A stretch of DNA of 36,071 nucleotides, taken from Thermomicrobium sp. Lineage in GTDB: Bacteria > Chloroflexota > Chloroflexia > Thermomicrobiales > Thermomicrobiaceae. Shown here one piece after another: positions 11,531-22,179 of this stretch (within the stretch, counting starts at the first letter, position 1; every line of letters starts with the position of its first letter). Below the pieces are notes generated by a model. That model saw only the letters and a program-made list of their open reading frames with translations, did not search any database and was not told the origin of the DNA. Position numbers and translations under genes: made by a program. The stretch lies in the NCBI GenBank assembly GCA_026419575.1, contig JANZZC010000002.1, positions 1 to 36,071 on the forward strand, written 5' to 3'.

Positions 11531-12349
11531 CTACTGTCCCTCGGTTCCGAGCAACACGCTGACGGTCGCCAGCGCCTGCACGTCGACGAGCGGACGCACC
11601 GTGAGCCGGAGCTCGTCCTCGGCCACCTGCCGCGCTCCCCCGACCACCACGCCGATGACGAGCCCGGGTGGAACGCCGGCCGTCCGGCCCGACGTGACGA
11701 CCAGCTCGCCCTCCCGGACCGGCGTATCCGGCGGCAGATGCCGGAACTCCAGCAGCCCCTGACCGCGCCAGCCCTGCCCGTACACGATACCCTCCGCACC
11801 GGAGTCGAGGAGCCGCGCACCGAGCTGGACCGCCGGGTCGGTCAGGACCGTCACGTGCGCGCGATCGCTCTCCACGCGGGTGACGATCCCGACAAGCACG
11901 CTCGGGTTGAGGACCGCCATCCCGACCCGGACACCGTCGGCACTGCCCCGGTCGATGACCAAGACGCGTTGCGGTCGCTCGGGATCGTAGCCGATGACAT
12001 GCGCGGCCAGGAGCCGCAAGCCGGGATGTTCGGACTGGAACCGCAGCTGCGCCCGGAGCTGCTCCAGTTCCTGTTGCGCTTGGCGCGCTTCGGCGAGCTC
12101 AGCCAGCAACGCGTCGCGCTCGGCTCGCAACTGCGCGATTTCGCGCTCGAGGTCCGCCCGGCTCGAGGACCGCGGTACGGGGAGCGCATCGATCGCCGAT
12201 CCCAACGCCCGCTCGATCGCGGTCACCGCACCGGTGACCGGTGCCCGCAACGGCGCCAGCCGCTGCTGCCGATCGAGGAGAACCGACGCCGTACTCGCCA
12301 GGACGAGCACGAGGGCCAAGAGCGCGGTTCGCCGGAGCGTCAACGGCAT
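11531..12349 (-). CDS. mreC: rod-shape-determining protein MreC
   Basis: A 272-residue protein with a short cytoplasmic N-terminus, one membrane segment (about 7-25), a coiled coil (about 62-105, SRADLEREIAQLRAERDALL) and the periplasmic or extracellular double beta-barrel (about 108-272, VIGYDPERPQRVLVIDRGSADGV and the VTSG...GVPPGLVIG region). MreC links the MreB cytoskeleton to wall synthases. It lies 20 nt after mreB and 8 nt before murT. No mreD follows, which is the usual third gene of mreBCD clusters. Confidence 0.93.
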   Translation of the reverse strand: MPLTLRRTALLALVLVLASTASVLLDRQQRLAPLRAPVTGAVTAIERALGSAIDALPVPRSSSRADLEREIAQLRAERDALLAELAEARQAQQELEQLRAQLRFQSEHPGLRLLAAHVIGYDPERPQRVLVIDRGSADGVRVGMAVLNPSVLVGIVTRVESDRAHVTVLTDPAVQLGARLLDSGAEGIVYGQGWRGQGLLEFRHLPPDTPVREGELVVTSGRTAGVPPGLVIGVVVGGARQVAEDELRLTVRPLVDVQALATVSVLLGTEGQ

Positions 12350-12369
12350 GCGTCACCTGGCACGTGCGC

Positions 12370-13446
12370 TCAGGTCGTCGACGTCGAGGTCGCCGGCGTG
12401 CGCCGCTGTTGCGTCCCTTGGAGCGCCCGCTGGTAGAGATGCAGCGCCTCGGCGACGCGCCCGGTGCCGCGCGCGACGCAGGTCAAGGGATCGTCCGCGA
12501 GATACACCGGGATCCGGAGTTCCGCCTGGAGACGCTTGTCCAACCCCATGAGCAGCGCCCCACCGCCAGCGAGCACGATCCCGCGTTCCATGATATCGGC
12601 GAGGAGCTCCGGCGGGGTCTCCTCGACGCACGCCCGAACCGCCTCGATGATCTGGTTGACCGGGCCGGCGATTGCTTCCCGGATCTCGACCGAACTCACC
12701 TCGACCGCCTTCGGCAGGCCGGTCAAGACGTCGCGCCCGCGCAGGACGACCCGGCGCTCCTCCTCAAGCGGGTAGGCCGAGCCCGCCGCGATCTTGGCGT
12801 TCTCGGCAGTCCGCTCGCCGATGATCAAGTTGTGGTCGCGACGCGCCCACTGCACGATCGCCTCGTCGATCTCGTCTCCGGCGACCCGGATCGAGCGGTT
12901 CACGACGATCCCGCCGAGCGAGATGACCGCGACCTCGGTCGTTCCGCCACCGATATCGACGATCATGCTGCCCACCGGCTCGTTGATCGGCAAGCCGGCG
13001 CCGATCGCCGCCGCCATCGGCTCCTCGATCGTATACGCCTCGCGGGCGCCAGCGCTCAGGGCGGCGTCCTTGGCGGCCCGCTTCTCCACCTCCGTCACAC
13101 CCGAGGGGATGCCGATGACCACGCGCGGGTGCGGCGTCAGCAGCTGCTGGGCATGCACCTTGCGGATGAAGTAGTGCAGCATCACCTCGACGGTGTCGAA
13201 GTCGGCGATGACGCCGTCCTTGAGAGGCCGCACGGCGACGATTGATTCCGGCGTCTTGCCGACCATCGCCTTGGCTTCCACGCCCACCGCGAGGACGCGG
13301 CGCGTCTTCTTGTCGACTGCGACGACCGAGGGTTCGGAGATCACGATCCCCTTGCCGCGCACGTACACGAGGGTGTTCGCCGTGCCGAGGTCGATCCCCA
13401 GATCTCGGCTGAACAACCCGAAGAGTGCGCTGAGCGGTCGAATCAT
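12370..13446 (-). CDS. mreB: rod-shape-determining protein MreB
   Basis: A 358-residue bacterial actin. ATP-binding motifs are DLGIDLGTANTLVYVRGKGI near the N-terminus, IVDIGGGTTEVAVISLGG (phosphate 2) and the GIVLAGGGALLMGLDKRL region (adenosine). ATG 13446 is preceded by GGGAGGAAGGG at good spacing; a longer reading upstream adds about 22 residues without family similarity. The C-terminus has a short Thr/Ser-rich tail beyond the usual end. It follows the M23 peptidase gene by 31 nt and leads into mreC, so the operon couples elongasome scaffold, wall hydrolase and lipid II amidation. Confidence 0.96.
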   Translation of the reverse strand: MIRPLSALFGLFSRDLGIDLGTANTLVYVRGKGIVISEPSVVAVDKKTRRVLAVGVEAKAMVGKTPESIVAVRPLKDGVIADFDTVEVMLHYFIRKVHAQQLLTPHPRVVIGIPSGVTEVEKRAAKDAALSAGAREAYTIEEPMAAAIGAGLPINEPVGSMIVDIGGGTTEVAVISLGGIVVNRSIRVAGDEIDEAIVQWARRDHNLIIGERTAENAKIAAGSAYPLEEERRVVLRGRDVLTGLPKAVEVSSVEIREAIAGPVNQIIEAVRACVEETPPELLADIMERGIVLAGGGALLMGLDKRLQAELRIPVYLADDPLTCVARGTGRVAEALHLYQRALQGTQQRRTPATSTSTT

Positions 13447-13477
13447 CGTCGTGCCCTTCCTCCCACCGGCCCCACCG

Positions 13478-15121
13478 TCACCGGAGGTAGAGACCAGGAT
13501 CTTGATAGACACCGTTGTACATGATGATGAAGTGGACGTGCGGGCCGGTCGAGTATCCGGTACTCCCCATCGGGCCGATGTACTGGCCCTGATTCACCCA
13601 CTGGCCGACCTGGACCGGCGGTGGCTCGGCCATGTGCCCGTACCAGGTCACGAACCCGTTGCCGTGGTCGATCGCGACCGCGTAGCCGAGACCGTAGTTG
13701 TTCCAGCCGCTGAAGATCACCGTCCCGCTGTCGGCCGCCACGATCGGCGTGTACATGTTGTTCGCGATGTCCCAGCCGTTGTGCCCGGCATGGAAGTACT
13801 GCGTGATGACGCCGGTCGTCGGCCAGATGAAGGAGCCACGCGGAGCCTGCCGTTGCGCCGGAGGATTGCTCGGCGCCGACGAACTCCCCGGCCCGCTCTG
13901 CGCCGGCGCGGGCGGAGGCGGCGGGGGCGGCGGGGGCGGCGGCTCGCCGCCGGGGATCATCACCAGCTGGCCGACGCGCAACACCCCGTTCGGACCGATC
14001 CCGTTCATCGGATAATTGCGGATCGCGTCAGGATCGACGCCCCAGTACTCGGCGAGCGATTCGATCGTGTCCCCTTCCTTGACCTTGACCATGACGCCGT
14101 CGGTCGGTAAGATCGCCAGCTGCTGCCCGGGATAGATGAGTTCGGGATCGGGCAGCGAGTTCGCCCAGGTGATCGTCTGTACCTTGAGGCCGAACCGCTG
14201 GGCGATCTTCCAGAGCGTATCGCCCTCTTGCACCGTGTACATGATGACGCGATCCCGCTGCGGCATCTTGCCGCCGGGCACCATGATCAGCCGGTTCGGT
14301 ACGAGATCGGTATCCCGCTGCACCCCGTTCGGTTCGTACCCGGTGATCGCGTCCGGCGTCACCCCGTAGCGGGCCGCGATCGACTCGAGCGTGTCCCCGT
14401 CCCGGACGACATGCAGCATGCCGTCGACCGGCGGGACACGGAGCGGCATCCCGGCCGGAAGCGGCGCACCGGGGTCGACCAGGTTGTTCGCCCAGAGCAG
14501 CGTCTCGACGCTCCGCCCGGTCGCCTTGGCGACGTCGTAGATCGTCTCCCCAGCGCTCGTCACGTACGTCTCCAGGACGAGCACGTCGGGCTCGACCGCC
14601 AACCCTCCGGTCGCGAGATACCCGATCCGCGGATCGACGGCGACGAAGTTCGTCCCTTGCGCGGTCAGCTGGCCGGTCGCCAGGCCACCGTTCCAGACCA
14701 CCGCGATCTGGTCCGTCCCGGCGGCGACCGGGACGGCCGCCGGTCGGCGCCAAAAGCCACCGCCGAGCGCCACGACGATCACGCAGCCGACGACCGCGGC
14801 ATGGAGCGACCAGCGTCCCAGCCGGCGCAACGCCCGCTGGCGGCCGGGCTGCGGCGGTACTGTCCGCCGCAAGGGACGCGGCGCAGGCGCGAGGGGCGGA
14901 ACTCCGGCACGACCGTTCCCGGCCGCTGGGAGCACCACCGGCGCCGGGACTGCATCGACGACGTGCGAGAGAGGAGAAGGGTCACCGGAGGGGGGAAACG
15001 CTTCGGTCGCATCCCCGTCGACTGGGGACTCTCCGTTCTGCGCCTCGGGACACCAGCCGAAGCGAACCGTCGTGCTGGGAGCGCTCTCGTGCTGCCGTTC
15101 CGAAGACCGCTCCAGCGACAT
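13478..15121 (-). CDS. membrane-anchored M23 peptidase with four LysM domains
   Basis: A 547-residue predicted wall endopeptidase. A ~100-residue Pro-rich cytoplasmic N-terminus precedes one membrane helix (about 105-123). Four LysM modules follow at about 184-230, 235-283, 294-339 and 343-390, then a Pro run (393-403) and an M23 domain (about 440-540). Zinc ligands are intact: His447 and Asp451 (HNGWD) and His530 in GPHVHF, with catalytic-type His496 (WYGHM) and His528. It should bind glycan strands and cleave stem peptides or crossbridges outside the membrane. The ATG follows GGGAAGGGAAG by about 12 nt. It is the first gene of the mreB-mreC-murT-gatD unit, with a promoter at 15211-15239. 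The intact ligands argue for an active enzyme rather than an EnvC-like activator. Confidence 0.92.
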   Translation of the reverse strand: MSLERSSERQHESAPSTTVRFGWCPEAQNGESPVDGDATEAFPPSGDPSPLSHVVDAVPAPVVLPAAGNGRAGVPPLAPAPRPLRRTVPPQPGRQRALRRLGRWSLHAAVVGCVIVVALGGGFWRRPAAVPVAAGTDQIAVVWNGGLATGQLTAQGTNFVAVDPRIGYLATGGLAVEPDVLVLETYVTSAGETIYDVAKATGRSVETLLWANNLVDPGAPLPAGMPLRVPPVDGMLHVVRDGDTLESIAARYGVTPDAITGYEPNGVQRDTDLVPNRLIMVPGGKMPQRDRVIMYTVQEGDTLWKIAQRFGLKVQTITWANSLPDPELIYPGQQLAILPTDGVMVKVKEGDTIESLAEYWGVDPDAIRNYPMNGIGPNGVLRVGQLVMIPGGEPPPPPPPPPPPAPAQSGPGSSSAPSNPPAQRQAPRGSFIWPTTGVITQYFHAGHNGWDIANNMYTPIVAADSGTVIFSGWNNYGLGYAVAIDHGNGFVTWYGHMAEPPPVQVGQWVNQGQYIGPMGSTGYSTGPHVHFIIMYNGVYQDPGLYLR

Positions 15122-15210
15122 CGCTCGTGCCCGACTTCCCTTCCCCTGGCTGCGCGCCCGGATTCCCGCGTCCCGATGCCGAACTCGACAATTCCCCGAT
15201 CCTCGCGCGC

Positions 15211-15239
15211 AGCATAGCACGTTCGCTCGTCCGCGTCAA
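15211..15239 (-). promoter_or_regulatory. sigma70-type promoter of the M23-mreB-mreC-murT-gatD operon
   Basis: On the minus strand TTGACG (15239-15234) is followed by a 17-nt spacer and TATGCT (15216-15211). TGC directly precedes the -10, giving an extended -10. The predicted start near 15204 leaves a leader of about 80 nt before ATG 15121. Confidence 0.65.
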
Positions 15240-15365
15240 ATCGCAGGCGGCAACTTCGGTGGATTTCTCGCCTCACCGCAAGGTCCTGATTCCAGACCGA
15301 GCGGGAGTGGACGGTTCCCGACGCCGCGCTGGCGCGCCCGGCGAGGTGCGTGCCGCAACGCTTCG

Positions 15366-15394
15366 TTCACGAGCGCGTCGTCGTGCGGTACGAT
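15366..15394 (+). promoter_or_regulatory. probable promoter of the lipid kinase gene
   Basis: TTCACG (15366-15371), a 17-nt spacer and TACGAT (15389-15394); each hexamer matches four of six consensus bases. The transcript would start near 15402, about 25 nt before ATG 15426. Confidence 0.45.
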
Positions 15395-15425
15395 CGAGGG
15401 GAGGACGAAGCGAGGACCCTTCAGC

Positions 15426-16418
15426 ATGGAAACCCGAGCGATCGAGCCCACGACGGGGAATACGTCGTACATCGCGGAGCCGCTGTACGCGATCGTCAAC
15501 CCGGTCGCCGGGAGCGGACGTCCGGCGCGCACCTGGCCGGCCATCCGCCGGCGCCTCGAACGGCTCGGGCTCCGCATCCACGAGGCGCACACCGCCGAGC
15601 CCGGCGCAGCGATGCACCTCGCCCGCTCGTTCGCGGAGGCAGGCGCGAGGGAGCTCCTCGTCGTCGGCGGGGACGGGACGTTGAACGAGGTCGTCAACGG
15701 GCTCCTCGACGACGCCGGGCGCCCCCTCGGCCCCGTCACCGTCACCGCCGTGCCCTGCGGGACCGGCCGCGACTTCCCGCGCTTGTTCGGTATCACCCGA
15801 CCGGAACAGGCGATCGACCTCCTCCGCACGGGCGAGCCGTGCCGGGTCGATGTCGGACGGTTGACCTTCGTCGGTCTCGACGGCAAGCGACAGCGCCGAT
15901 ACTTCGTCAATATGGCCGACGTCGGCCTCGGCGCCGAGACGGCAGCGTGGGTCAGCAACTCCACCAAGCAGCTCGGCGGCTTCCTCGCGTACCTCGTCGG
16001 CGCGCTGCGCACCATCCTGCGGCATCGGGCAGCCGAACTCGCGCTCGAGGTCGACGGCCAGCCGGTCTTCACCGGTCGCGCGCTGATGGTCGCGATCGCC
16101 AACGGGCGGTTCCATGCGGGCGGGATGCGCATCGCGCCGATGGCGTCAGTGGTCGACGGGAAACTGGAAGTCTTCGTGCTCCGAGAAGTCTCGCGACCGG
16201 TTCTCCTCGGCTCGCTCCTGCCCAGCGTCTACCGGGGAACGCATGTCCACCATCCAGCGGTCCAGCACTGGCGCGGGGCGACGGTGCGCCTGACCGCACC
16301 GCGACCGATCCGCATCGAGATGGACGGCGAGCCGGTCGGCACGACCGACCTCGAAGCGGGCGTCGTCCCGCGCGCGCTCACGATCCGCGTGCCGGCCGGC
16401 ACCTGCCTTGCTGCTTGA
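15426..16418 (+). CDS. diacylglycerol kinase-family lipid kinase
   Basis: A 330-residue DAGK catalytic-domain protein (YegS/DgkB/LCB5 type). It shows YAIVNPVAGSG (21-31), the nucleotide-binding GGDGTLNEVVNG (81-92), PCGTGRDFPRLFGI (110-123, usually GTGNDF) and the C-terminal IEMDGEP loop. It phosphorylates diacylglycerol or a related lipid; the substrate cannot be read from sequence. ATG 15426 is chosen because similarity starts soon after it and a promoter lies just upstream; longer in-frame readings would overlap the divergent promoter region. The gene ends 86 bp before the aldolase-like gene, whose -35 box overlaps this stop codon. Confidence 0.9.
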   Translation: METRAIEPTTGNTSYIAEPLYAIVNPVAGSGRPARTWPAIRRRLERLGLRIHEAHTAEPGAAMHLARSFAEAGARELLVVGGDGTLNEVVNGLLDDAGRPLGPVTVTAVPCGTGRDFPRLFGITRPEQAIDLLRTGEPCRVDVGRLTFVGLDGKRQRRYFVNMADVGLGAETAAWVSNSTKQLGGFLAYLVGALRTILRHRAAELALEVDGQPVFTGRALMVAIANGRFHAGGMRIAPMASVVDGKLEVFVLREVSRPVLLGSLLPSVYRGTHVHHPAVQHWRGATVRLTAPRPIRIEMDGEPVGTTDLEAGVVPRALTIRVPAGTCLAA

Positions 16419-16444
16419 CCCTGCACCGGGCGCTCTGCCACAAT
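16415..16444 (+). promoter_or_regulatory. probable promoter of the aldolase-like gene
   Basis: TTGACC (16415-16420) overlaps the stop of the kinase gene. It is followed by an 18-nt spacer and CACAAT (16439-16444). The -35 matches five of six and the -10 four of six consensus bases. Confidence 0.5.
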
Positions 16445-16452
16445 CGGGCAGT

Positions 16453-16471
16453 GCGGGCGAGCCTCGCCCGC
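16453..16471 (+). other. stem-loop at the start of the aldolase-like mRNA
   Basis: GCGGGCGA and TCGCCCGC form a perfect 8-bp stem around a 3-nt loop. It lies just after the predicted transcription start (about 16451) and upstream of the AGGAG box at 16487-16491. No T-run follows, so it is not a standard terminator. It may stabilise the 5' end or stop residual transcripts from the kinase gene. Confidence 0.45.
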
Positions 16472-16504
16472 GAGTCTCGAATCGACAGGAGATCGAACGG
16501 AACG

Positions 16505-17671
16505 ATGACGACCGAACAGCGCTCGTTCAATCAGGTCGAGGCCTTGGCCGAGGCACTGCGGATCCTGGCCGAAGAGCCGGAGACCGGAACCTTCACCGTT
16601 TTCGGTGAACCGCCGACGCCCCGGTTGCAGTGGTTCATCGACGGCTTGCGCCACGAACTCGAACGCCGCGGCCACGAGTTCCATGCCAAGCCGATCCCCG
16701 ACATCCGCCTGGTCTTGAGCGTCTTCCCGCACAATCGGCCGCACCGGTACCGCCGCAAGGCGCAGGCGACCTTCGTCGTCGGGATCACCGAGCTGCCGGA
16801 GCGACCGGCGGATATCCTCACCGCCTGCTACCCGTATCTGCTCTACGCACTCGCCAACTTGGTGTTGATCCTGATTCCCGGCCCGGAGGGGCCGGAGGCG
16901 CACTTCGTCACGCTGGAGCGCGGGCACTACGGGATCCCCTATCGCGCGGGAGAAGACGAACGCTTCTTCGCCGCCATCTACGAGCGGCTGCACCCGCTCG
17001 CCGCTTCCCATCTGGTCATCAACAACGTGTTCCGGACCGATCTCGAGCCGGAACTCTGGAACGGCGACGAGATCACGCAGCAGATCTCCCGGGCCGGCAA
17101 GCGCCTGGAGGCGATGAACTTGCTGCCGGCACCCTTCCCGGTGCACGAACTCCTGAGCGAAGAGGACCTGCGCCACGTCAAGCGCTTGTACGGGCTCGGT
17201 GGCCTCAGTTACGGGAACCTGAGCGCCCGGAAAGATCGGCACCGCTTCTGGATGAGTGCGAGCGGCGTCAACAAGGCGCAGCTCGAGGTGATCGGGCGTG
17301 ACATCCTGCTCGTCAGCGGTTTCGATCCGACGATCCCGGCGATCATCCTCAGCGTGCCGCCCAACGTCGAGCCGCGCCGCGTCTCCGTCGATGCGATCGA
17401 GCACTGGATGATCTACCAGCAGCATCCCGAGATCGGCGCCATCGTCCACGTCCACGCCTGGATGGACGGCATCCGCTCGACCGAGATCAACTACCCTTGC
17501 GGTACGCTCGAGCTCGCTCTTGCGGTTTCCAACCTGCTCGCTCAGGAGCCCGATCCGACCCGTGCGGTCATCGGCCTCAAGAACCACGGCGTCACGATCA
17601 CCGGACGGAGCATGGACGAGATCCTCGACCGGATCGACGGCAAGCTCATCCCCCAGGTCCCGATGACCTGA
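16505..17671 (+). CDS. class II aldolase/adducin-family protein with extra N-terminal domain
   Basis: A 388-residue protein in two parts. Residues about 215-388 are class II aldolase/adducin-like: GGLSYGNLSAR (232-242), WMSASGVNK, the metal-ligand pair His315 and His317 in IVHVHAWMDG, and His361 in GLKNHGVTITG. These suggest a bound divalent metal and an aldolase, epimerase or dehydratase type reaction on a sugar phosphate or similar substrate. Residues 1 to about 210 form a separate domain that I do not recognise, with ETGTFTVFGEPPTPRLQWFI and a hydrophobic stretch at about 108-125. Typical family members are about 210-250 residues, so this is a fusion. It has its own promoter-like site. The substrate is unknown. 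Confidence 0.82.
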   Translation: MTTEQRSFNQVEALAEALRILAEEPETGTFTVFGEPPTPRLQWFIDGLRHELERRGHEFHAKPIPDIRLVLSVFPHNRPHRYRRKAQATFVVGITELPERPADILTACYPYLLYALANLVLILIPGPEGPEAHFVTLERGHYGIPYRAGEDERFFAAIYERLHPLAASHLVINNVFRTDLEPELWNGDEITQQISRAGKRLEAMNLLPAPFPVHELLSEEDLRHVKRLYGLGGLSYGNLSARKDRHRFWMSASGVNKAQLEVIGRDILLVSGFDPTIPAIILSVPPNVEPRRVSVDAIEHWMIYQQHPEIGAIVHVHAWMDGIRSTEINYPCGTLELALAVSNLLAQEPDPTRAVIGLKNHGVTITGRSMDEILDRIDGKLIPQVPMT

Positions 17672-17745: not shown

Positions 17746-18975
17746 TCAGCTCGGAAAGGCGAAGACCGCCTTGATGACGCCGCTGTTCCCTTTGGCGGTG
17801 ACGGTCGCCAACGCCGCACGGTAGTCGGTCAGCGCGAAACGATGCGTGACCAGCCAGCCTAGCTCGACCCGCCGCTCGGCCATCAAGCGCACCGCGTGGT
17901 GGATGCTCGAAGCACGGATGCCGTCGAGTACCGCGTCGGCGTACGCCATCGAGCCGCGGATTTCGACCTCGCGCAACCAGACCGGCGTCCAGTCCACCCC
18001 GTGCGGATCACCGGCGAGTCCCACCATGACGACCCGTCCTCCGGCCCGAGTCACGGCGAGCGCGTCCTGCACCGAACGGCTCGAACCGACGCAGTCGAAG
18101 ACCTGATCGACACCGGCCTGGACGAGCCAGCGACCGAAGCGAGCCCGGTAGACCCGCGCGCCGGTGAGCCGGGCCAGTTCCCGGTAGAGCGCTGGCCCGG
18201 AACGTCCGCGGAGCACGACGTCGGCGCCGAGGCGCGATGCTGCCTCGGCTTGGAAGGGATACCGCGCGGTCACCAGAATGCGCGCCCGACAGCCGATCGC
18301 GCGGAGCGCGACGACGGTCAGCAGGCCGATGATCCCGGCCCCCAGCACGAGCACCGTCGATCCGTCGGCCGGCCGGTTCTGGAACGCCGCGTGCAAAGCG
18401 ACTCCGAACGGCTCGGCGAGCACCGCCTCCTCGTCCGTCAGATGCTCGGGAACCGGCACCAGCTGCGAGCGATGGGCGACGAAACCGGGACTCCAACCCC
18501 CGCCCGTATCGCGGCAGAAACCGATCATGATCCCGGGAGCGACGGTCCCTTCGCGGAACCGTAAGCACCGGTTCGGCAGACCACGGGCGCATTCACTGCA
18601 GAGATCACGGAAACCGCGCGCCACGCACCCGAGCAAGGGGTTGACGACGACGCGCTGGCCGACGTGGAACCCCTCGACCGCCGCCCCGAGCTCGCGGATC
18701 GTGCCCACGAGTTCGTGCCCGAGCGTGAACGGGAACGAGACCAACGGCGAGGTCGTCGGGCTGGCGTGGAGGGTGATCACGCCAAGGTCGCTCCCGCAGA
18801 TACCGCTCAAGCGTGTGCCGATGCGCACCCATTCCGCGGTCGGAAGCGGCGGCTCAGGGACATCGCGGAGCTGCAGGAGCCCCCACCCGTTCCAGTAGAC
18901 CTCCGGGCGGAACCGGCCGATCGCTTTGGCGAGCACGTAGCGCGGTACGCTCTCGACGATCTGCAACGCGAGCAT
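17746..18975 (-). CDS. zinc-dependent alcohol dehydrogenase (MDR family)
   Basis: A 409-residue medium-chain dehydrogenase. The catalytic zinc site is suggested by Cys60 (ICGSD), His87-Glu88 (LGHELVG) and Glu188 (LAEPFGVALHA). Four cysteines (117, 126, 129, 137) can hold a structural zinc, although the first spacing is longer than in the classic ADH loop. The nucleotide fold follows with VLVLGAGIIGLL (208-219). It oxidises an alcohol or polyol with NAD(P); the substrate is unknown. The ATG follows GAGGGGAG and lies 9 nt after the deacylase stop, so the two genes form one operon. The length exceeds the usual ~350 because of an N-terminal extension and an insertion around 250-280. Confidence 0.88.
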   Translation of the reverse strand: MLALQIVESVPRYVLAKAIGRFRPEVYWNGWGLLQLRDVPEPPLPTAEWVRIGTRLSGICGSDLGVITLHASPTTSPLVSFPFTLGHELVGTIRELGAAVEGFHVGQRVVVNPLLGCVARGFRDLCSECARGLPNRCLRFREGTVAPGIMIGFCRDTGGGWSPGFVAHRSQLVPVPEHLTDEEAVLAEPFGVALHAAFQNRPADGSTVLVLGAGIIGLLTVVALRAIGCRARILVTARYPFQAEAASRLGADVVLRGRSGPALYRELARLTGARVYRARFGRWLVQAGVDQVFDCVGSSRSVQDALAVTRAGGRVVMVGLAGDPHGVDWTPVWLREVEIRGSMAYADAVLDGIRASSIHHAVRLMAERRVELGWLVTHRFALTDYRAALATVTAKGNSGVIKAVFAFPS

Positions 18976-20745: not shown

Positions 20746-22179
20746 TCACTGGCCGCCTCCGGGCGACGTCTTTCCGATATCCTCCGGTTGGCTCAAGCGC
20801 CGCACCAATGCTCGCAAGTCCTCGACGTTCCAGGCATCGCGGTTGCCGGCCAGGACGACGAATTGGTACCGCCGCATCCCGTCGTCCCACACCGCGGTCT
20901 GCGGCCATCCCCAGACCGGATGGGGCACCCAGCAGAGCTCGATCCGTCCAGCCGGCATCTCGCAGTGCTGTTCGCCACCGAGCTCCGGTTCTCCCGGACC
21001 ACCGACGGCGATGCTGAGACGAGCGACCAGCGTCGGACCGACCAGCCCCACCCGGATCGTCTCCGGACCGTCGCGCCATGCGGAAACGGCTCGGAGTCCT
21101 GCCGGCAAACCGGCGTCGATCGCGCGCGGCACGAGCGCTGCGAGCGGCTCCGCGACGACCTCGAAGACGACCTGCTGCTGCCACGTCGCTCCGTCGGCTT
21201 GCAGCACGTAACAACCGGCTCGCGCGATCGGGAGATCGATCGATACGGCACGTCGCCCGCGCGTCGATGGGTCGAGGAACAGCGTCCCCTCCCCCTCGCC
21301 GAACGGGCCCGACGTCGCTTCGGAGAGCGAGAAGAGCCGGAGCAGGATCGGTCCATGCTCGCTCGCCGAGACGTACACCTGTGCCGCGAGGCCGCCGTTC
21401 GCGCCCGTCCCATGGTCGGGCAGGTTGACCACGGCGTCAGGGCCGAGACTCAGGTAGACCGGCCCAGTACCGACCGCGTCGCCGAACGCCCAGGCGCTCC
21501 GGGGGCAGGCTCCTCCGTTCGTCTCCGGGACCTGCAGCGACCGCTGGCCCAACGCCTCCGCCAACAGCTCGCGCGAACTCCCTGGCAAGGCCTGTGCGCC
21601 GACCGCCCCGGCTACGACCGAGAGGACGACGCCGTCCCGGCAGTCCATTTCGACCCGGGCGAGGTACGGCTTGGCGATGAAGTCGTCGGCCTCCCGCAGG
21701 AGCGCCACCGTCACGGCGAGGCGGTCATCGCCGAGCGGCGAGAAGCGGACGAACTCGAGGACGCTCCACCGCTCCCGCCGCTCCAGTCGGCGAGCCACCC
21801 AGTCCAAGAATCCTTCCGGGCGATCGGTGAACAGCCCGGTCGCGACCAGATCCGGCTCCCGCGGGATCACCGCGAACCAACGGGAACTCGCGTCGGAAGC
21901 GCGCCGCAGGCCGAGCGCTGCGCGGAGCTGCGGGAGGTCGCCGCTGTTCAGGGCGTTCAGGAAGAGCCGGGACGTCTCGAGGACGCGTTCGACCGTGCAG
22001 CTGCCGAACGGTTCGAGCGGGACCGACGGTGTCGGGAGAAGTAGCGGCGTCGGGGTCGGCTCCAGCGTCGCCGTCGGCGCCGGCGTCGAGACGACGACGT
22101 CCGTCGGGGTCATCGGCCGAACGCCGCAGGCGACGATGAGCATGACCCCGACCAGGAATGTTCCGAACCAGCGCGTCAC
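20746..22179 (-). CDS. predicted lipoprotein of unknown function
   Basis: A 477-residue exported protein that I do not recognise. It starts with a lipoprotein signal (RWFGTFLVGVMLIVAC, lipid-modified Cys18 expected) followed by a Thr/Pro-rich linker at about 24-53 (TPAPTATLEPTPTPLLLPTP). The body is soluble, with an early part around CTVERVLETSRLFLNALNSG that resembles small secreted alpha/beta folds only loosely, and a beta-rich later part. The start is GTG at 22179, supported by GGGAGGAG about 9 nt upstream; the only nearby in-frame ATG would destroy the signal peptide. It follows the L,D-transpeptidase by 56 nt and is probably co-transcribed, so a surface or wall role is likely. Confidence 0.8.
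   Translation of the reverse strand: MTRWFGTFLVGVMLIVACGVRPMTPTDVVVSTPAPTATLEPTPTPLLLPTPSVPLEPFGSCTVERVLETSRLFLNALNSGDLPQLRAALGLRRASDASSRWFAVIPREPDLVATGLFTDRPEGFLDWVARRLERRERWSVLEFVRFSPLGDDRLAVTVALLREADDFIAKPYLARVEMDCRDGVVLSVVAGAVGAQALPGSSRELLAEALGQRSLQVPETNGGACPRSAWAFGDAVGTGPVYLSLGPDAVVNLPDHGTGANGGLAAQVYVSASEHGPILLRLFSLSEATSGPFGEGEGTLFLDPSTRGRRAVSIDLPIARAGCYVLQADGATWQQQVVFEVVAEPLAALVPRAIDAGLPAGLRAVSAWRDGPETIRVGLVGPTLVARLSIAVGGPGEPELGGEQHCEMPAGRIELCWVPHPVWGWPQTAVWDDGMRRYQFVVLAGNRDAWNVEDLRALVRRLSQPEDIGKTSPGGGQ

Follow-up and report, generated by a model that had tools for sequence, protein, structure and literature searches.

A conserved two-domain protein of the Chloroflexota that probably joins a pared-down class II aldolase core to a CoaB-like domain

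The class II aldolase scaffold is known from aldolases, epimerases, dehydratases, decarboxylases and oxygenases. The members nearest to the protein described here are MtnB, AraD and FucA. Asp76, His95 and His97 of AraD have a role at the metal. For FucA, PMC5216522 gives Asn29, Thr43, Gly44, Ser71 and Ser72 as substrate residues, and Glu73, Tyr113 and Gly132 together with three zinc histidines as residues of the active centre. The DNA analysed here (the window) is a stretch of 36,071 nucleotides from Thermomicrobium sp. (contig JANZZC010000002.1). It encodes a protein of thermophiles and their relatives in which a pared-down class II aldolase core is preceded by a domain that probably resembles CoaB, the phosphopantothenoylcysteine synthetase (PPCS). 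The family is undescribed in the family libraries and the literature searched, and no description of a class II aldolase paired with a phosphopantothenoylcysteine synthetase was found in that literature.

The two-domain gene and its distribution

The gene is located at 16505..17671 (+) and encodes 388 amino acids followed by a stop codon. A likely ribosome binding site, AGGAG, was read by eye at 16487..16491 (+), 13 bases 5′ of the ATG. Starting at the N terminus, the protein has a poorly conserved tail (residues 1–26; 16505..16582, +) that aligns in full only in close relatives and is predicted with low pLDDT. The tail is followed by the N-terminal domain (residues 27–212; 16583..17140, +), for which two models and their VIA-align rows predict a CoaB-like alpha/beta fold over about residues 29–167. 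The remainder (residues 213–388; 17141..17668, +) is a shortened class II aldolase core, delineated by the match to PF00596, the MtnB model, and the spacing and tail lengths given below.

The open reading frame list of the window also contains a longer frame of 773 amino acids (15350–17671), in frame with that of 388. The 388-residue frame was taken as the gene because the extension runs, in a different reading frame, through the upstream kinase gene, and because 24 strong relatives have open frames of only 299–456 amino acids; the longer frame is an artefact. The same two-domain frame recurs in many genomes, with orthologues in other Chloroflexota, which rules out an artefact of gene fusion or frame. 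The frame at 16505–17671 is thus a real, conserved gene.

The two-domain protein is present in 25 of 41 near genomes, 46 of 158 class genomes searched, and 28 of 400 genomes sampled throughout the phylum Chloroflexota; these three sets overlap. The window lies on contig C167 of genome G000 in this collection, of the same genus as G002 and G004. A pattern scan gave nine loci from named relatives, Thermomicrobium (L002, L009), Thermalbibacter (L003) and Sphaerobacter (L007) among them. Beyond the Chloroflexota the scope was that of a pattern scan able to find close relatives. Viral contigs gave 33 pattern matches, with no relative among them. A tblastn search of plasmids gave no match. When the 400 phylum genomes were searched with the N-terminal domain by itself the same 28 were returned, at the same gene each time, and so no free-standing copy of the domain was seen in this set. 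The partial matches in G018, G121, G251 and G358 are all at contig ends (G121 as judged from its start position only). There is a weak second match in G004, with 29% identity over residues 7–118 (E = 1.2e-4).

The class II aldolase core

Aldolase_II is the sole Pfam match of the window protein, with 57.3 bits and its best stretch at residues 229–318. This exceeds the gathering cut-off of the class II aldolase/adducin superfamily (PF00596; 22.2 bits). The best NCBIfam model for the core is MtnB (methylthioribulose-1-phosphate dehydratase, TIGR03328), which matches all 37 family members at E ≤ 0.001. Its curated cut-off of 137.05 bits is not reached by the whole protein (38.3 bits) or by the core (42.1 bits), and the window protein falls far below every NCBIfam cut-off listed. 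The OxoTetrPhDc model matches 24 of the 37 cores weakly. Nothing convincing was found in PHROGs, where the best match (E = 0.0057) is to the aldolase part. The initial annotation had assigned the C-terminal half to the class II aldolases on account of HVH and NHG motifs. This is borne out by the Pfam match and by the motifs themselves, which are H315-V316-H317 and N360-H361-G362.

The window protein was aligned with 36 orthologues that are 48–94% identical to it, a conservation well above what chance would give. The mean column identity is 78% in the core, compared with 52% in the N-terminal domain. N238, G254, S294, V295, D296, E299, H300, H315, H317, Y330, C332, N360, H361 and G362 are identical in all 37 sequences, and S253 in 36 of them. 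In the alignment with AraD, N238 (17216..17218, +) falls on the conserved asparagine of the GN motif, which in FucA is the substrate residue Asn29. D296 (17390..17392, +) is aligned to Asp76 of AraD (1k0w and 1jdi), at the position of FucA Glu73. H315 and H317 (H315-V-H317; 17447..17455, +) are aligned to H95 and H97 of AraD and are presumed to be a pair of metal ligands. The third metal histidine is presumably that of N360-H361-G362 (17582..17590, +).

The core is shortened at two places, a feature absent from the initial annotation. From the second histidine of HxH to the histidine of NHG there are 44 residues in 25 of the 37 sequences and 45 in the other 12. A stop codon is visible in 27 sequences, and of these 26 have 27 residues after the NHG histidine and one has 39; in the remaining 10 of the 37 the stop codon lies outside the fetched DNA and the tail length is not assessable. 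In six class II paralogues from relatives the middle segment is longer, and NHG is directly followed by more residues. A small tree of 10 of the 37 family cores and 6 of 20 paralogue loci (those recovered by motif pattern) separates the 10 cores from the 6 paralogues with a support of 1.00 and a long branch.

The FucA-type features, comprising the Tyr113 loop between HxH and NHG and the C-terminal arm, have no evident counterpart in the family. A counterpart of Tyr113 is not evident because the HxH–NHG segment is shortened. Judged by alignment, the family keeps the asparagine, the glycine, the first serine, an acidic residue and the three histidines of FucA, while valine replaces Ser72. The aldolase core is a known scaffold, altered at two sites that are important for the catalysis of FucA.

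The same changes could be read as those of a non-heme Fe(II) oxygenase that, in the manner of pyruvic oxime dioxygenase, uses the class II aldolase scaffold. In keeping with such an activity the FucA tyrosine loop has no evident counterpart, and 9ryg, which carries the PDB label decarboxylase NovR and which we take to be an Fe(II) oxygenase, is a weak profile match (E = 0.061). According to PMC5216522, the scaffold has already been turned into an Fe(II) dioxygenase that retains the three histidines; by the same account, however, the listed substrate and active-centre residues of FucA are all lost from that enzyme except for the histidines, whereas the two-domain family keeps the asparagine, the glycine, the first serine and the acidic residue in 37 of 37 sequences. 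An oxygenase is unlikely.

Neighbouring genes

The two-domain gene is followed by that of a zinc-dependent medium-chain dehydrogenase of 409 amino acids (17746..18975, −), assigned from Pfam. None of the NCBIfam matches listed for it, threonine and idonate dehydrogenases among them, comes near its cut-off. At E ≤ 1e-70 the dehydrogenase is found in 25 of the 158 class genomes, and 24 of these 25 also carry the two-domain gene. In 15 of the 24 the two are within 2.5 kb on one contig. At the same threshold 22 of the 46 gene-bearing class genomes are without the dehydrogenase. This test is partly circular, as the profile was built from 10 copies located near a two-domain gene; among the dehydrogenase-bearing class genomes outside the profile, 15 of 16 carry the two-domain gene. 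With a cut of at least 445 bits, chosen after the scores had been seen, 16 of 18 dehydrogenase-bearing genomes in the phylum set carry the gene, and 12 of the 28 gene-bearing genomes are without the dehydrogenase. Outside the class it is present in four of eight gene-bearing genomes, and is adjacent every time (G177, G194, G272 and G358). The Fisher tests applied to these co-occurrences took no account of shared descent.

At a looser threshold (E ≤ 1e-60) the dehydrogenase family extends to 98 of the 400 genomes, so that only the high-scoring subgroup is specific. The two genes are convergent in the window and co-directional in other families. This difference in orientation suggests that the association is more than frozen synteny. 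Families f30 and f31 (G219 and G500, for example) commonly carry a lower-scoring group of this dehydrogenase family (about 290–396 bits), and none of their genomes belongs to the 28 that have the two-domain gene.

Directly upstream of the two-domain gene is that of a lipid-kinase-like protein (15378..16418, +) with Pfam domains DAGK_cat and YegS_C. Of the 27 genomes of the order that carry the two-domain gene, 22 have a DAGK_cat/YegS_C gene in this position. Two of the other five are cut by a contig end (G018 and G028), and three have no kinase there (G022, G031 and G148). In the 19 gene-bearing genomes of the other families of the class the kinase is adjacent in none among the matches listed, and there is one further adjacent kinase within the phylum (L085). 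The kinase family is widespread, with members in 118 of the 158 class genomes, and the link is therefore one of position only; the neighbour was rejected as a functional clue by itself. The neighbour counts are not phylogenetically independent. The gene caller used in the neighbourhood survey is heuristic: among 26 loci it overlooked the two-domain gene in one (L091), and in the window it overlooked the kinase and the dehydrogenase. A short-chain dehydrogenase is next on the same strand in three loci (L087, L088 and L097; assigned by Pfam for the first two). In the closed genome G105 (contig C1; 5,801,598 bases) the two-domain gene (L088:2081–3193) follows directly on a dnaA-like gene, recognised by eye, and precedes this short-chain dehydrogenase.

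Further from the gene, the window contains a cell-shape and wall cluster at 11531–15220 (−), with MreC, MreB and a LysM + M23 peptidase in a row. Beyond the zinc dehydrogenase are an amidohydrolase (PF07969; 18985–20613, −), whose best NCBIfam model is PRK09061, below its cut-off, and an open frame of 477 amino acids (20746–22179, −) with no Pfam match at E ≤ 0.001.

The protein might act in the membrane-lipid chemistry of the Chloroflexota, for example in making or breaking a long-chain 1,2-diol backbone in partnership with its two neighbours, the lipid-kinase-like protein and the zinc dehydrogenase. T. roseum builds its membranes from long-chain 1,2-diols, whose synthetic route is left open in its genome paper (PMC2615216), and alkane-1,2-diol glycosides of Roseiflexus castenholzii are the subject of a title cited in PMC10150655. 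The two-domain gene occurs in the named Thermomicrobium records L002 and L009, and in the window itself it adjoins a DAGK_cat/YegS_C kinase. It occurs also in G105, presumably a Roseiflexus. Against a role in diol lipids, the large-genome family f30, which we take for Ktedonobacteria, is absent from the 28 of 400 matching genomes, and a member of the Ktedonobacteria makes 1,2-diols. We know of no chemistry that joins a class II aldolase to diols. A link between the two-domain protein and these lipids is possible but weak, and we consider it improbable.

The N-terminal domain and a proposed function

Residues 1–210 match no Pfam and no NCBIfam family at E ≤ 10. Comparison of the 37 N-terminal domains with Pfam gave no plausible family, only six families that were each hit by one or two of the 37 (best E = 0.053). 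DFP (PF04127) has no match among the 37 at E ≤ 1, and a profile of the domain has none among PDB sequences at E ≤ 10. The domain is conserved at P79, R84, F90, Y109, T136, E138, G140, P164, L165, I172, N174, L180, A197, G198, L206, L207 and P208, all of which are invariant. The motif TVFGEPPTPRLQWFI (residues 31–45) had been singled out by the initial annotation as conserved, and this does not hold in the 37-sequence alignment, where none of its residues is invariant or near-invariant.

The structure was predicted twice. Model 1, made for the window protein from 10 aligned sequences, is confident over about residues 29–167 only. Its aldolase half is poor, with pLDDT mostly 30–45, and the metal site is consequently placed by sequence alignment alone. 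Model 2 is the N-terminal domain of the L007 orthologue by itself (nine sequences), which is 58% identical to that of the window, and has a mean pLDDT of 73.5 and a pTM of 0.71. The two models are not independent, as their alignments share most members. Neither has a Foldseek match in the PDB at E ≤ 0.001 (ribosomal and KaiC chains ranked first among the weaker ones), and the viral fold library gave no match at that threshold. Re-alignment of the Foldseek candidates with VIA-align placed CoaB/PPCS structures in the top 13 rows for model 1 (Z 8.6–11.3; next row 8.4) and the top 16 for model 2 (Z 8.9–11.0; next row 8.1); the comparison covered the folds in these rows of Foldseek candidates. The best is 2gk4_B for both, with Z 11.3 and rmsd 2.9 over 133 residues for model 1, and Z 11.0 and rmsd 3.0 over 134 residues for model 2. 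The likeness to CoaB appears in this re-alignment only, and we assign a CoaB-like fold to the N-terminal domain with moderate confidence. The initial annotation had described an unrecognised domain of about 210 residues and looked to structure prediction and a fold search. About 212 residues are indeed separate, absent from the family libraries searched and predicted to have a defined fold. That fold is probably not a new one, because on re-alignment it resembles CoaB.

The resemblance raises the question of whether the domain has a ligase activity like that of CoaB, or is an enzyme that binds nucleotides, which would make the protein truly bifunctional. The likeness is seen in both predicted models, and P79 and R84 are shared by all 37 sequences. 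On the other side, comparison by hhalign with the CoaB domains of relatives gave no kinship (probabilities of 0.5% and 0.7%). The first comparison used 29 of 30 CoaB loci (L137 was left out and L117 read in the wrong place); the second, and the motif count that follows, used 28. In a global hhalign alignment with CoaB the true score (1.97) is below the mean (3.2) of up to 40 column-shuffled controls. The nucleotide-loop motif G[GP]T...D[PA].R...N.S[ST]G is present in 26 of the 28 CoaB copies of relatives, compared with 0 of the 37 N-terminal domains; the two exceptions have GAT where the pattern wants GGT or GPT. The window genome also carries its own normal CoaB (contig C47), which rules out the two-domain protein as its replacement. 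No evidence was found for CoaB chemistry by the N-terminal domain, and a bifunctional enzyme of this kind is very unlikely. The least likely account is that the aldolase half, missing its catalytic-loop and C-terminal parts, is catalytically dead and the protein structural or regulatory as in adducin, since the core is the most conserved part of the protein and its metal positions are identical in all 37 sequences.

We favour an uncharacterised two-domain metalloenzyme that would act on a phosphorylated substrate in a metal-dependent step of the lyase type, its CoaB-like domain serving as partner, and place the probability of this at about one half. The initial annotation had suggested a new two-domain enzyme. 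The fusion is kept across several Chloroflexota families, and that the protein is an enzyme we infer from the invariant residues of the putative metal site. A profile match to a described fusion family with known function would have spoken against novelty; none was found in the family libraries and literature searched, and the suggestion stands on that point.

A lyase-type step on a phosphorylated hydroxy-carbonyl compound is proposed because the metal-site and phosphate-site residues are identical across the family. A divalent metal would be bound by H315, H317 and H361, together with D296, unless the latter acts as the acid/base group. The phosphate is probably held by N238, S253-G254 and S294. 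The reaction could be an aldol cleavage or condensation, a dehydration or a decarboxylation. As the tyrosine loop and C-terminal part of fuculose aldolase have no evident counterpart, the acid/base group would have to come from elsewhere, and the invariant E299, Y330 and C332 are candidates. The N-terminal domain may replace the lost parts by capping the active site, setting the oligomer or holding a second substrate. The carbonyl compound may be a product or a substrate of the zinc dehydrogenase, and the phosphate may come from the lipid-kinase-like neighbour.

In a bolder version, a CoaB-like domain would replace the catalytic loop and tail of an aldolase to give a new class of metalloenzyme, which would work with a lipid-type kinase and a zinc dehydrogenase of its own in a lipid reaction of the Chloroflexota not yet described. 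This is distinctly unlikely; if true, the new class would possibly account for the missing biosynthesis of membranes of long-chain 1,2-diols. The family is an orphan-enzyme target in a phylum with partly unsolved membrane chemistry, and it shows how much a class II aldolase scaffold can lose without any change in the residues of the metal site.

The combination of a kinase, a dehydrogenase and an enzyme of the class II aldolase type recurs among metabolic pathways; in those of 3-oxo-tetronate-phosphate, for example, a class II aldolase or decarboxylase is found close to the other two, as here. The locus differs from these in that the kinase belongs to the lipid-kinase superfamily, the dehydrogenase is a zinc-dependent medium-chain enzyme and the aldolase has an extra domain. 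The N-terminal domain is like CoaB (DFP, PF04127) in its predicted alpha/beta fold, and unlike it in sequence and profile, in the nucleotide loop and in its partner domain. Pyruvic oxime dioxygenase, as presented in PMC5216522, shares the class II aldolase scaffold with its three histidines, and differs at the asparagine, glycine, first serine and acidic positions that the two-domain family keeps, as well as in the extra N-terminal domain of the latter. Like MtnB, AraD and FucA, the core has GN(L)S, SxSG, SxD/E...H, HxH and NHG in this order. Unlike them, it has a segment of 44–45 residues between the last two motifs, a tail of mostly 27 residues, and an additional domain at its N terminus.
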